Positions 48,440 through 53,659 of a stretch of 64,000 nt of DNA are shown piece after piece. Below the pieces are notes generated by a model. That model searched no databases, was not told the origin of the DNA, and saw only the letters and a list, made by a program, of their open reading frames with translations. The DNA is from Clostridia bacterium (GTDB lineage: Bacteria; Bacillota; Clostridia; UBA1381): assembly GCA_017443895.1 (NCBI GenBank), contig JAFSXU010000034.1, forward strand, positions 124,001 through 188,000, in the 5' to 3' direction. Position 1 is the first letter of the stretch. Each line of letters begins with the position of its first letter. Position numbers and translations under genes: made by a program.

Positions 48440-50077
48440 TTAATCTTCAGCTGTTAAATTTGCAGATGTGTAGTTCTTATATTGATTTACCGAGCCTGCC
48501 TTCATTGCTGCTGACCAACCAGTCACATTATCTCTTGTTATAAATGATTTTGCATAAAAAGTTGTTCCAACCATTGCTGTAGGTATCTTCATTAAATCAG
48601 CAGAGAATGTGTCACCATACTTAGCTATGCCGGTAGTATCTGAATAATATTTTGCAGCTTTGTTAGTGGTGATACTGTTATCAAAGTATGCATTGTCAAG
48701 ATATCCATTAGTCACAATCCATGTACCGTATGCTTCAATTGGCTCATTGTCCTTATATGTTGAGATAAATCTGATATTTCCATATCCGTCATTATCTATA
48801 TATGCGTCAACATCTGTAACCTCTACACGACTTGTTACAGCCTCAAGAGTTGAGAAATGTGAAATTGTAAGTTGACATGTGCCGCCATCAGCATCACCGG
48901 TATATGTATACTGCTTATCACCACTGCCTATTGTGTACTTGTCAATAAGTGTACCCTCATCTGTTGCGTGGATAATATATAAAGGCTCTGCCGTTACAGG
49001 GATAGTAACTGCAATCTCAGCATTTTGCTTTAACTGGTCGTTAGTAATTGCAACCTCTTTGTCCTCATGTCCTACACAGGTGATTTTTGCATATGGAGTA
49101 AGCTGGAACTTCTCATTGCTGTTTGCAGTGTTTTCAATTGCTTCAGTTTTTGCAAATATATCAACATTTACAACCGTTTCCGCACCTGCGACTGCTTCTA
49201 TATTATTCTCTACAATATAATCATTGATAATCTTTGTTTTCTCTGTAGCAATAATGCTGTCCTTAATACCCTCGACAGTAAGACCTGTAACACCCTCAGC
49301 CTGTGTTTCTTCTACAGTTGCATCAAGTGTACCAACCTGTACGGTTTCTTCTGTGCTTGTACCTGTTTTTGTATAAAGAACATAATCACCTATTTCATGA
49401 CAAATTGTTCTGTCTCTGTCCTCGAACATTACAAGCTGTACCTTGACATACGAGTCAAGTGGTAAATCATCATCGACAACACCGCACTTGAATACCTTTA
49501 CATTGTTTACAACCTCTTCATATGTAAGGTTAGAGCTAACCGCATTACCGGTTGCCAAACCTATAACCTGCATAAGATAATATTCAGTTGGTTTTGAATC
49601 TATCGCATCTTTCCCTGCTAACTGTGCAAGTTTTGAAACTCTAAACCCAACATCACCGTAAGTACCATAGTTACCTACAAGCATAAGCTCATCACCTGAC
49701 ATTGTGCCTGTCGGTGTGCATAATGTGATTCTGAAATCACAAATCCAGTCACCGTAAGTAGCAAGTTCTGCTTGCTTTAATGCATTACCTTCCGGTGTGT
49801 CAGGGTAGTCTGTTGCAAATGTAACAGCCTTGTTCATGGCGTATTCCCCACCGTCTATGCCTGTAAAAGCACTGTAATCCGGGTTAAGGTCAACATTTAA
49901 GTCTGCACCGTATAATTCCGTTACTGTTGCGCTTGGCAAGCTTTGCGTTTGTGTTGTTTGCTCCTCTGATGTTTGTGGCTCTGTTACATCATCGTCTGCA
50001 AAGACTGCAAGCTGTGCAGATGCCACCGTCATAATTGCTGCGAGTGTAAGAGCTACACCCTTGAATAGTTTTTTCAT
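48440..50077 (-). CDS. secreted protein sharing a module with the Hint protein
   Basis: 545 residues with a clear signal peptide (KGVALTLAAIMTVASAQLAVFA, cut near 27), then a Thr/Gln-rich linker, a beta-rich middle that I do not recognise, and a C-terminal module (about 430-540) with GYGNIRFISTYKD, GTWIVTNGYLD, FSADLMKIPTA and TTFYAKSFITRD. The same module opens the 50309-53608 protein. No sortase motif, SLH or dockerin domain was seen. GGAGG precedes the ATG. It lies 27 bases after peptide A and 25 bases before peptide B in a tight operon. Confidence 0.82.
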   Translation of the reverse strand: MKKLFKGVALTLAAIMTVASAQLAVFADDDVTEPQTSEEQTTQTQSLPSATVTELYGADLNVDLNPDYSAFTGIDGGEYAMNKAVTFATDYPDTPEGNALKQAELATYGDWICDFRITLCTPTGTMSGDELMLVGNYGTYGDVGFRVSKLAQLAGKDAIDSKPTEYYLMQVIGLATGNAVSSNLTYEEVVNNVKVFKCGVVDDDLPLDSYVKVQLVMFEDRDRTICHEIGDYVLYTKTGTSTEETVQVGTLDATVEETQAEGVTGLTVEGIKDSIIATEKTKIINDYIVENNIEAVAGAETVVNVDIFAKTEAIENTANSNEKFQLTPYAKITCVGHEDKEVAITNDQLKQNAEIAVTIPVTAEPLYIIHATDEGTLIDKYTIGSGDKQYTYTGDADGGTCQLTISHFSTLEAVTSRVEVTDVDAYIDNDGYGNIRFISTYKDNEPIEAYGTWIVTNGYLDNAYFDNSITTNKAAKYYSDTTGIAKYGDTFSADLMKIPTAMVGTTFYAKSFITRDNVTGWSAAMKAGSVNQYKNYTSANLTAED

Positions 50078-50104: not shown

Positions 50105-50281
50105 TTATTCATTTCCGGTACCTGTACTCGTATCTATATTCGCATCTGCGCCCGACCACTGCTGAGCATCATACTCTGTAGCTCCTGCCGTCGGGTCGCC
50201 AATGCCAAGTACAAAACCGCTTGTGTATATTATATTATCCTGAAAATCTATAACTTCCATTTCAGCCCTGATATAGTTCAT
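50105..50281 (-). CDS. 58-residue peptide A
   Basis: Begins MNYIRAEMEVIDFQDNIIYT and ends with an acidic, Gly/Thr/Ser-rich tail (GADANIDTSTGTGNE). AGGGGG lies 10 bases before the ATG at 50281; an in-frame TTG three codons earlier touches that site and is excluded. No signal peptide. The N-terminal motif is shared with peptide B (48265-48414). It sits between two genes for large exported proteins with 27-base gaps on both sides. No modifying enzyme is in the operon. Function unknown. Confidence 0.78.
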   Translation of the reverse strand: MNYIRAEMEVIDFQDNIIYTSGFVLGIGDPTAGATEYDAQQWSGADANIDTSTGTGNE

Positions 50282-50308
50282 TGTTATCAATCCCCCTTTT
50301 AGTCACGA

Positions 50309-53300
50309 TTAGTCCAATGTTCTTCTTGAATTAGTGTCCATAAATACACCTATCTGCTCAATAATATCATCATATGTTATTAAGCCTTTACCAACAAGGA
50401 CTTTTAAATAAGGGCCATTGAACGCACAAAACTCCTCATGTGATACATAATCGGATAAATCCTCATATTCATATAAGCCATATTTTGCAATATCCAACAT
50501 CATACTTTGAGCATCATATTTCATATCATCGCCTATTGCAAAATAATCATACCAACCCGGTACAGGCGGTGGAGTTACAGTTAATATACCGTTTGCTATA
50601 CAGTTATTGTGGAAAGCTGTGAGCAATGTATAACTATGTACACCCTCTTCTATAATATCATAGTCTACCAGCTCAACTGTTTTATTCTCAATACCGTCGG
50701 TTTTAATAAATGTATGTCCGATATATGAATCAACATTGTCTTTATTGATATAGATATAATTTTTCTCATTTACATCATAAAGTCCATGCTCATATACTAT
50801 TGTTAAATCCGAATTATCTGAGAATTTAAGCTTAATAGTATCAAGCCCCGTAAATCCATCGTCCATAAGCAATGACGGCTGAGAAACTGTATATTCACCC
50901 TTGAAGAAATCCCATACAAGTAGCTCATCATCAAATGTTAAATCCTCAATAGGCTTTTGACTTCCGTCTGCAAGAGTTATCAGCGTTCCCTCTGCAAGAC
51001 AGCTACCGCTACCACCACCGCTACTACTACCACTAAATGTGCTATACGATACAGACGGATTGGAATTTTTCTGTAATCCTGACCAAGTATGCTCAAATTT
51101 TAAAGTCTTACCTGCTGCGGTAAATTCATATTCTAGCTTTGGAGATCTTGGAGTACTACCACTTCCTACTAAACCACTGGATGATTTCGGTCCAAAATAG
51201 AGTTTGCTGTTATACACAAACGGTGCGCCATTGTCGCCACTCTTAAATTCCTTCATATTTGTAATCTTAAGCGTGAAATCGTTACATGTATACTCCCAAT
51301 AATTATAATCACCATTAGCTTTTCCAGAAGTTGTAGGTGTAAGATCTGACAAACCCTTAGTTACATAATTGCCAGCTGATTTAGAATAATACTTTATACT
51401 TAAACCTTCCAAAGCTGGAACAGCATGATTATAGTCACTTCCACTTGTCACCCTGAGCGCAGTCCCATAATTTTGTGATACTAATACAGGCGGGTCAATC
51501 GACTCTTGTGATACTGATATGGTTAATGGGTATTCATATTCAATATTTTGTTGTACGGCATCTCCATCTTTATCATAATACTTAGTATCATAAAACTTCA
51601 ATGTATAATTGTAATCTCCAATATCACTGAACACCGCCGATTGCCCTATGGCTATAGTGCCATTATAAATGGTATATGGTATTTCTTCACCGTATTTCAT
51701 TATTTTCAATTTCGATGAATCCAGTGTATAACTACCGCTTACAGGCAGTCTAATCTGAAGTTTTCGCACAAAAATGCTACCGTCATAGTATTCTGTATAA
51801 ATACGGTCTTCACCGCTTTCATCTGTAAACACTGTTTTTGGTACAATGTCGCCAAATTTATTCGGAGTATAGACAGGCTCTGTTTTAAGTTCCTCTATTG
51901 TTCCGTTTGCATTCGTGTATGAATACACCAGTCCACTATACCATGCATACGGAACATCTTGCTTTTCTACCCTCTTGTCAACTATACTTGCATCTCCCTC
52001 AATAAATACAAATCCTGCATTTATACAAGTTTTATCATCTATTGTATGCTGATACTGTTTAAGCCCCAACGCAGTACTTAACGGGCTCTTAACTCTTGAA
52101 TCCTGCACATACTGCAAATATTCTGAATTTACCCAGTTATACTGCCTTAATGTCCCTTCAATAGTTATCACAGTATTTCCCGTTATACTTGTAACACCTA
52201 AACCTAGCCTTGTCTGCGTTGTATCGTTTACATTAGCTTTTGTTGGAACTTGTATGGTCGTCACATCTTTAAGCAATAAAGTATTTGCACCATCTGCTTG
52301 AATATTTGCAGCTGCACCACCATTTATTGTTGAATTTATTATCTGCTGATCTACTCCATTCGCATAGACTGCAGTACGACCGCCGGAAATATACGAATTT
52401 ATAATCTTACTGCTACCATTCATTGCAACAGCATTTATCATATTGTAATATCTACCATCACCGTCGCCTGTATTCAAATTTTCAGTTTTATTGCTATCGT
52501 ATAAAATTGAATGCGAAAAATTAGGGCAGATAACCTGAACATTATCAAGTACTCCATTGTCTAATTCAATAAAACCATTATATCTATACTTTGAAACCGA
52601 ATCGCTTGAACATGTCATCTTAAATCCATTACCGTAAATAGCATAGCCGTTACTTACTTTAACGCTACTAAATCCAACATCATCAAGCAATACTACATTA
52701 TTGCTTGTGGCACTCATTGCGTAGGAGGTTGCGTTTATTGCGTCTACCACTTCAAGAAGGAGTGTGCACTTATACTGTGTTGCGGCAGAGTCTTTTATTG
52801 CCACTTCAACAACACCTGTGCCGGTAAACTGAATTGTGTCGCTCAATGTCTTTTGGGATAGAGTTGTTTCTTCTGTGGTATTATTTACGCCGGCGTTACC
52901 TGCTTTATTGGTAATTTTTACATCTATGCCTAACGGTGTGCCATTTGCTGTAAAGAGCGAGCTTAACGCAACCGCATTGGCATTACCTACACGGTAGAGG
53001 TATTTATCTGTATTTTCAAACTTCTTTTCAAATGTAACAAATGATTTATCTACATCAGCTTTTGCTTCTTCAGTCGTGTTTGAGTTTGTCTTATTTGTAC
53101 TGTCATAATATTTAGGTTTATTTGCCTTGTCTTCCGAAGATGCAGAATAATCTTTGGTATTCTCACTATTATTTACATTTTCGCTTGCAAGAGGTGCTTG
53201 TACATACTTATCTGCATTATTACTATCTTTATAAACAATATAGGACTTTGCATAAAACTCCAAATTAAGCAAATTTGCAGGGATATTTAAAATGTCTGCG

Positions 53301-53608
53301 GTAAATTTAAAACTTGTTTTACCACTAACTTTATCATCAGTCGAGACCTTATCGTTTTCAATTTCTACTATATTATCTGCATCCCAGCCGTTAAAAATGC
53401 TTTTAGGTACTACCCATGTACCTATTCTATCCACTGTTTTTTCTCCATCTAAAGTAACCTCTGTTATAAAACGGAGGTTTCCTTTACCGTCCTTTATATA
53501 GCTGTCACGCTGTACTATATTTACGCTATCTGCAAATGATGCGGATTGCAGCATCAAAAGAACGCAGAGAAACACCGCTACAGCGCCAATAGATTTTAAA
53601 GCTCTCAT
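50309..53608 (-). CDS. large surface protein with beta-helix and C-terminal Hint domain
   Basis: About 1099 residues. Signal peptide (IGAVAVFLCVLLMLQSASFA). Residues about 25-135 hold the module also found in the 48440-50077 protein (GNLRFITEV, GTWVVPKSIF, FTADILNIPA, EFYAKSYIVY). A Ser/Asn-rich linker follows, then a right-handed beta-helix (KIINSYISGGRTAVYANG, QIINSTINGG; about 290-440), Ig-like beta domains, a Gly/Ser linker and a Hint domain from Cys870: CLAEGTLITLADGSQKPIED, the TxxH-like IVYEH, and the end FHNNCIANGILT. About 90 more residues follow. Hint domains cleave or ligate their own chain. ATG 53608 follows AGGAG; an upstream GTG is excluded. Confidence 0.85.
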   Translation of the reverse strand: MRALKSIGAVAVFLCVLLMLQSASFADSVNIVQRDSYIKDGKGNLRFITEVTLDGEKTVDRIGTWVVPKSIFNGWDADNIVEIENDKVSTDDKVSGKTSFKFTADILNIPANLLNLEFYAKSYIVYKDSNNADKYVQAPLASENVNNSENTKDYSASSEDKANKPKYYDSTNKTNSNTTEEAKADVDKSFVTFEKKFENTDKYLYRVGNANAVALSSLFTANGTPLGIDVKITNKAGNAGVNNTTEETTLSQKTLSDTIQFTGTGVVEVAIKDSAATQYKCTLLLEVVDAINATSYAMSATSNNVVLLDDVGFSSVKVSNGYAIYGNGFKMTCSSDSVSKYRYNGFIELDNGVLDNVQVICPNFSHSILYDSNKTENLNTGDGDGRYYNMINAVAMNGSSKIINSYISGGRTAVYANGVDQQIINSTINGGAAANIQADGANTLLLKDVTTIQVPTKANVNDTTQTRLGLGVTSITGNTVITIEGTLRQYNWVNSEYLQYVQDSRVKSPLSTALGLKQYQHTIDDKTCINAGFVFIEGDASIVDKRVEKQDVPYAWYSGLVYSYTNANGTIEELKTEPVYTPNKFGDIVPKTVFTDESGEDRIYTEYYDGSIFVRKLQIRLPVSGSYTLDSSKLKIMKYGEEIPYTIYNGTIAIGQSAVFSDIGDYNYTLKFYDTKYYDKDGDAVQQNIEYEYPLTISVSQESIDPPVLVSQNYGTALRVTSGSDYNHAVPALEGLSIKYYSKSAGNYVTKGLSDLTPTTSGKANGDYNYWEYTCNDFTLKITNMKEFKSGDNGAPFVYNSKLYFGPKSSSGLVGSGSTPRSPKLEYEFTAAGKTLKFEHTWSGLQKNSNPSVSYSTFSGSSSGGGSGSCLAEGTLITLADGSQKPIEDLTFDDELLVWDFFKGEYTVSQPSLLMDDGFTGLDTIKLKFSDNSDLTIVYEHGLYDVNEKNYIYINKDNVDSYIGHTFIKTDGIENKTVELVDYDIIEEGVHSYTLLTAFHNNCIANGILTVTPPPVPGWYDYFAIGDDMKYDAQSMMLDIAKYGLYEYEDLSDYVSHEEFCAFNGPYLKVLVGKGLITYDDIIEQIGVFMDTNSRRTLD

Positions 53609-53659
53609 TTTTTGCACACTCCTACCGAAAAATTGCACATTTAGCCTACTATCGATTAC

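Follow-up and report, generated by a model that had tools for sequence, protein, structure and literature searches.

A C-terminal Hint domain with a conserved extension in a putatively secreted protein of Clostridia, and its relatives

Of the Hint domains that can carry out only the first half of splicing, that of hedgehog, which has no terminal His-Asn, is the best known. Inteins carry an Asp in block F, and a block-B Thr assists the N-S shift in inteins and in hedgehog alike; this Thr, of the TxxH motif, is widespread in the Hint superfamily without being universal there. According to passages of PMC2362128 and PMC7906309, the region behind the hedgehog Hint domain brings cholesterol to the thioester, and nematode hedgehog relatives have a differing “adduct recognition region” in that place; a passage of PMC7906309 also names T326 and H329 of hedgehog. 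Type B bacterial intein-like (BIL) domains are described in an excerpt of PMC7765530 as being without the C-terminal motif and as cleaving at the N-terminal side. Secreted bacterial proteins with a C-terminal Hint-like domain, as in the present case, appear in Burglin 2008 (PMC2362128); the passages concerned, however, name Stigmatella, Myxococcus, Reinekea, Serratia and Yersinia rather than Clostridia, and describe no extension for those proteins. A literature search, a weak negative in which subscription papers were thinly covered, brought up no Hint subfamily of Clostridia in which the Hint is followed by a conserved domain.

The domain considered here lies in a stretch of 64,000 nucleotides (the window, meaning all the DNA that was analysed) from the assembly (2.72 Mb, 77 contigs, 99.5% completeness) of a gut-type member of the Clostridia. 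Together with the extension that follows it, it is called the module below, and the protein that ends in it is called the carrier. The module resembles the Hog part of hedgehog in its Cys1 and block-B His, in having no His-Asn, in its C-terminal place on a secreted protein and in the dedicated domain after Hint. It differs in lacking the block-B Thr, in being carried by bacterial and phage proteins, in having no known adduct, and in its acidic extension, which shows no detected homology to the sterol recognition region. Judged by its motifs, it cannot be filed as Hog, having neither the Thr nor a detected homology in the extension. Like BIL domains, it is a Hint in variable bacterial proteins, and its nearest solved fold is a Tetrahymena BIL domain (6y75); type A BIL domains, however, keep the His-Asn that occurs in 0 of the 32 members of the module. 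Since this pair is missing, the module is, by motif, not an intein or a type A BIL domain; it would act like the first half of these and of Hog. The nearest published label, from the motif pattern set against the description in the excerpt of PMC7765530, appears to be type B BIL, with the difference that the features described there for type A and type B do not include an obligate C-terminal domain.

The carrier gene and its neighbour

A mechanical reading of the carrier frame covers 50309-53638 on the minus strand, with a GTG start at 53638. The ATG at 53608 is more plausibly the start, since gtaggag precedes it and a signal-peptide-like stretch comes after it (by reading); Cys880 numbered from the GTG is thus Cys870 from this ATG. 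The parts of the gene, all on the minus strand, are as follows.

50309 to 53608, minus strand: carrier gene, 1099 codons and stop, from the preferred ATG at 53608
53525 to 53608, minus strand: signal-peptide-like N-terminus MRALKSIGAVAVFLCVLLMLQSASFADS, read by eye from the sequence
53099 to 53524, minus strand: N-terminal domain, related, via relatives, to the C-terminus of the neighbour at 48440-50077
51839 to 53098, minus strand: middle part, beta-helix-like by reading, common to 20 of the 26 bacterial carriers including that of the window (tblastn)
51002 to 51028, minus strand: Gly/Ser linker ahead of Cys1 (sequence)
50567 to 51001, minus strand: Hint domain (motifs, profile matches in PDB, AF2 model, alignment)
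50312 to 50557, minus strand: C-terminal extension, acidic, helical and tied to the Hint subfamily; similar by position to an adduct recognition region

The initial annotation had named three Hint motifs in order after a Gly/Ser linker, and all are in place in ORF 50309-53638(-): the Cys1-containing motif CLAEGTLITLADGSQKPIED at 51001-50942 (Cys1 at 51001-50999), IVYEH at 50800-50786 (block-B His72 at 50788-50786) and the block-F-like motif FHNNCIANGILT at 50614-50579, each on the minus strand. It had put the domain at the end of a surface protein, and our reading of the sequence supports a C-terminal position in a secreted protein. The stretch that it delimited, 50360-51005, contains the Hint domain and ends 16 codons before the stop, whereas the extension reaches the end of the gene; the final 230 residues (51001-50312) start with Cys1. 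The genome of the window has a single copy of the module.

The gene at 48440-50077 (minus strand) codes for a secreted protein of 545 aa whose C-terminal domain is akin to the carrier N-terminus via relatives: its C-terminal part has 42 and 38% identity (tblastn) to the carrier N-terminal regions of loci L092 and L094, respectively. The pair of neighbour and carrier recurs in genome G001 (L092), and in G086 (L094) the start of such a neighbour is seen at the contig edge. The two proteins may bind or polymerise via the shared domain. The small ORF at 50105-50290 was considered as a cognate nucleophile and dropped, being absent from all 21 related loci searched (tblastn).

The Hint fold, the active site and the extension

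The full window protein has no match at E <= 1 among the models of Pfam and NCBIfam, phmmer against PDB returns nothing for it at E <= 1, and a search for PT-HINT in the genome of the window returned nothing. The last 230 residues alone reach only E 0.023, for Hom_end_hint. The single window protein is too diverged for Pfam, NCBIfam and phmmer, and the relation to Hint is visible only with the profiles of relatives. A profile of 28 members matches the BIL domain 6y75 at E 1.2e-8, hedgehog 1at0 at E 0.004 and the Clostridium thermocellum BIL domain 2lwy at E 0.16. The initial annotation had proposed structure prediction as a check of the Hint domain, and the prediction agrees with it: the AF2 model of Hint plus extension (mean pLDDT 89.2, pTM 0.85) matches 6y75 with a Foldseek E of 2.9e-9 and a VIA Z of 19.2 (2.3 A over 145 residues), hedgehog 1at0 with a VIA Z of 16.9 (2.0 A over 138 residues) and 2lwy with a VIA Z of 16.9 (1.8 A over 134 residues). 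These structural matches cover the first ~145 residues of the two-domain model. Because the profile of the 28 relatives and the AF2 model both find solved Hint domains, we consider the Hint fold of the C-terminal domain confirmed at the level of profile and predicted structure, with a match beyond chance.

Two named relatives, at 41-42% identity, come from Oscillospiraceae MAGs of sheep caecum and goat rectum. Among 61 related genomes, 4 matches are found in 3, that of the window being counted. A six-sequence profile has matches in 5 of 70 family genomes and in 18 of 391 class genomes; 13 of these 18 hold 20 full-length matches, the other 5 having fragments or other Hints. In the phylum sample, 3 of 398 genomes match, namely that of the window and two with fragments of 28-29 positions, and no full-length module outside the class was seen in this sample. 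The window module has no tblastn match in phages and plasmids; for the phage-type module of L035, three Vibrio phage records match the module start only, none covering 80%.

Alignment A8 has 32 members (26 bacterial rows, the window included, and 6 from viral contigs), with identity to the window protein down to 30%; the active-site and extension counts refer to all 32, and some others (the residue before Cys1, Pfam) to 28. Loci that repeat the same places were dropped (L007 for L003, L008 for L001, L011 for L004), as were L036 and L037, which do not differ from L035 in the stretch that was matched, and L163, L166, L167, L169 and L170, whose protein ends are the same or nearly the same, by eye, as those of L162, L165 and L168. 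Also dropped were L010 (no Hint), L024 (a BIL domain ending in His-Asn), L025 (a helicase-like protein with an intein), the block-A fragments L026, L027, L090 and L091, and the other viral Hints including the tail-fibre-like L039-L046; such an extension was absent from those read, and L109-L115 and most of the weaker viral matches lie outside that reading. The 32 relatives make up one Hint subfamily. The NCBIfam model intein_Nterm is matched by 24 of the 32 at E <= 0.1, the window protein itself having no match. Weak matches (E <= 1) among the 28 fall to Hint (PF01079) in 20, Hint_2 (PF13403) in 5, Vint (PF14623) in 4 and PT-HINT (PF07591) in 2, and the window module fails all four at E <= 1. 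Going by these profiles, the module is a subgroup of its own beside Hint_2, Hint, PT-HINT and Vint.

There are 10 invariant columns in the 32 sequences, among them Cys1 and the block-B His72, each present in 32 of 32; the Cys that the initial annotation took as catalytic is thus invariant. The block-B Thr, three residues before the His, is found in none of the 32 (I in 18, V in 9, L in 4, A in 1). Terminal His-Asn is likewise absent from all 32. At the intein-end position most members have V, M, L or I, with T, A, P or S next after it; the HN pairs within FHNNC (window protein) and IHNGL (L003) are both situated upstream of this aligned position. Provided that our by-eye alignment to intein block F is right, the position of the block-F Asp is Ser in 26 of 32. 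As far as the motifs tell, the residues of the N-terminal reaction are strictly kept except for the Thr, and those of Asn cyclisation are gone.

These losses are what speaks for a Hint domain that has lost its reactivity and whose fold is retained as a cap, for binding or for structure: the block-B Thr and the C-terminal catalytic residues are missing. At the level of sequence, the absent Thr is the chief reason to suppose that the reaction could have become slow or regulated, or have been lost. Passages of PMC7664689 report that in active class 3 inteins even the block-B His is replaceable via compensating changes, so the missing Thr is not decisive. Moreover, Cys1 and His72 belong to only 10 columns held invariant across sequences that fall to 30% identity, and a structural role alone leaves an invariant first Cys unexplained. 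We regard the unreactive cap as unlikely. The residue before Cys1 is Ser or Gly in 22 of 28 and Pro in 2 of 28; the latter should make a poor substrate and counts against autoprocessing.

The extension is found behind Hint in 32 of 32 (about 73-96 residues as cut for the counts). Five short helices are predicted for it, whether it is modelled within the full AF2 structure or alone (five sequences, pLDDT 74.7). D170 and G175 are invariant (32 of 32), Y174 is present in 31 of 32, about half of the extension is hydrophobic, and its net charge, from -2 to -13, is negative in every member. The 28-row extension profile has 20 strong matches in 13 of the 391 class genomes, all 20 directly behind a Hint of the subfamily; conversely, the 20 full-length Hint matches in these genomes all have the extension. 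Re-finding the members is by construction for a profile made from them, and the real test is the absence of solitary copies: no solitary strong copy occurs among the 391 class genomes. A 14th class genome has one weak partial match. We consider the extension shown to be tightly coupled to this Hint subfamily in the sequences sampled, where it is seen only behind it.

Against PDB the extension profile has nothing below E 0.08, and the extension-alone model has no match at E <= 0.001, which does not establish a new fold; VIA gives it a single row of Z 2.5, under the level that is meaningful for the tool. Pfam matches to the extension in single members (EF-hand_6 at E 0.0005, 1 of 28) were taken as chance.

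Carriers in bacteria and viruses

Six of the 26 bacterial carriers are without the shared middle part. Two of these are subtilases and two have a pilin-like N-terminus (the one scanned has Big_2 domains); the fifth is a Listeria-repeat/LRR protein, and the sixth, with an open frame of ~4500 residues, is unclassified. Among the 20 carriers with the middle part, SLH domains occur at the N-terminus of one, and another has an N-terminus that weakly resembles camelysin. On the module tree the seven carrier classes need 7 changes against a shuffled mean of 11.6, so the carriers have been swapped, if only rarely. Such varied carriers are as expected of a generic processing tail. Some genomes have two or three copies within ~12 kb; at L096 (G203) and L098 (G152) there are three carriers each within ~12 kb, all ending in the module.

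On viral contigs the complete module ends a protein of 770-820 residues whose gene comes right after the portal gene.

Viral contig L035, 3225 to 5696: phage carrier with complete module
Viral contig L162, 1907 to 4228: phage carrier with complete module
Viral contig L165, 1886 to 4228: phage carrier with complete module
Viral contig L168, 1844 to 4249: phage carrier with complete module

The portal is recognised by PHROG profile in L035 (E 5.6e-29), where a terminase lies ahead of it, and in L169, a near copy of L168 (E 2.6e-27). Of the entries in the viral-structure library BFVD, a Gaeavirus Hint protein, A0A3G5A239, matches the two-domain model best (223 aligned columns, rmsd 2.4 A, TM-score 0.74 by query, 26% identity). 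From the aligned length we infer that the predicted match includes the extension; the pair of Hint and extension may thus exist in giant viruses, of which Gaeavirus is one.

Other Hints were met on the way. The viral contigs L039-L046 code for long proteins with a C-terminal Hint that has no terminal His-Asn and, behind it, a conserved tail of another kind (~65 residues); L041 and L046 have tail-fibre-like matches. In L038 (3870-6467) the module stands in the middle of a secreted protein, with ~270 residues after it, unlike other members. L025 (736-3303) has a canonical-looking intein (TPNH, VHNC) in a protein that is helicase-like by its flanking motif; its profile match is weak.

The initial annotation had the module replacing a sortase by anchoring the beta-helix part to the wall. 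The place of the module at the C-terminus of secreted proteins would suit this, as would the end of the window carrier, which by eye is not LPXTG-like. The genome of the window, however, has two sortases of its own, and sortase is present in 7 of 16 module genomes against 219 of 391 in the class sample (13 of the 16 being also inside that sample), so the carrier genomes are not sortase-poor. Furthermore, the wall-binding SLH domains of one carrier are at its other, N-terminal end, and wall attachment is not expected for portal-adjacent phage carriers. The module does not compensate for an absent sortase, and we consider the anchoring role very improbable.

Possible reactions and their meaning

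We think that autoprocessing at Cys1 without splicing is probable. Splicing and Asn-dependent C-terminal cleavage are impossible without the terminal His-Asn, and for this reason the thioester would have to be resolved by an outside nucleophile. Under this proposal the module would act as a one-sided C-terminal autoprocessing unit, like the Hog part of hedgehog: Cys1, aided by the block-B His, would shift the preceding peptide bond to its own side chain, giving a thioester, and the nucleophile would free the carrier with a new C-terminus. Hint and extension would depart as one piece. The roughly 90 residues that the initial annotation noted after the Hint domain correspond to a conserved part of ~85 residues; it saw in them the possible partner that is shed, and according to our proposal they would leave together with the Hint. 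The acidic helical extension would most likely position or select the attacking group. It is the position of the extension, that of the hedgehog adduct region, together with its coupling to Hint, that leads us to propose a Cys-dependent release in which the extension shapes the attack; we infer the chemistry and the cleavage, as well as what the extension does.

As to what attacks the thioester, we are evenly divided between two outcomes, and hold each of them only tentatively. In the first, the extension binds a specific nucleophile (an amine or hydroxyl of the wall, a polymer or a small molecule), to which the carrier is then joined by a covalent bond, in the way that hedgehog is joined to cholesterol. 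The layout is that of a Hint followed by an adduct recognition region, as given in passages of PMC2362128 and PMC7906309, the extension and Hint are coupled in 20 of 20 cases, and a secreted protease and pilin-like proteins are among the carriers. Against this, no nucleophile or binding pocket was identified, the extension has no fold match, and it is acidic and not lipid-like, so a lipid adduct is disfavoured. A single wall component is disfavoured too, because the carriers are both extracellular and phage proteins, and one such component cannot serve a portal-adjacent phage carrier as well.

In the second outcome, which seems to us equally possible, water resolves the thioester, and the tail would serve as a throw-away chaperone or an aid to secretion, shedding itself from surface proteins. 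The anatomy is the same, small residues precede Cys1, and the carriers are too varied for one attachment target; however, there is no obvious need here for an extension with an invariant D170 and G175.

It is tempting to go further and to suppose that bacteria and phages have their own version of the adduct formation known from hedgehog, with the module as a mobile tail of two domains that tags C-termini covalently, and we put this forward as a rather doubtful conjecture. The same degree of doubt attaches to its particulars: that the targets are unrelated secreted and virion-associated proteins, that the second domain selects the nucleophile, and that the arrangement is shared with a giant virus. 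If true, it would bear on the origin of Hog domains.

Returning to autoprocessing at Cys1, the occurrence of the two-part tail on secreted and virus proteins points to a means of protein cutting or tagging that has been little studied. A subfamily with the hedgehog layout offers small, easily expressed proteins for asking what attacks the thioester. If the attacker is not water, bacteria would have an unrecognised route for C-terminal protein tagging or cross-linking; if it is water, the module would be a compact self-removing tail.
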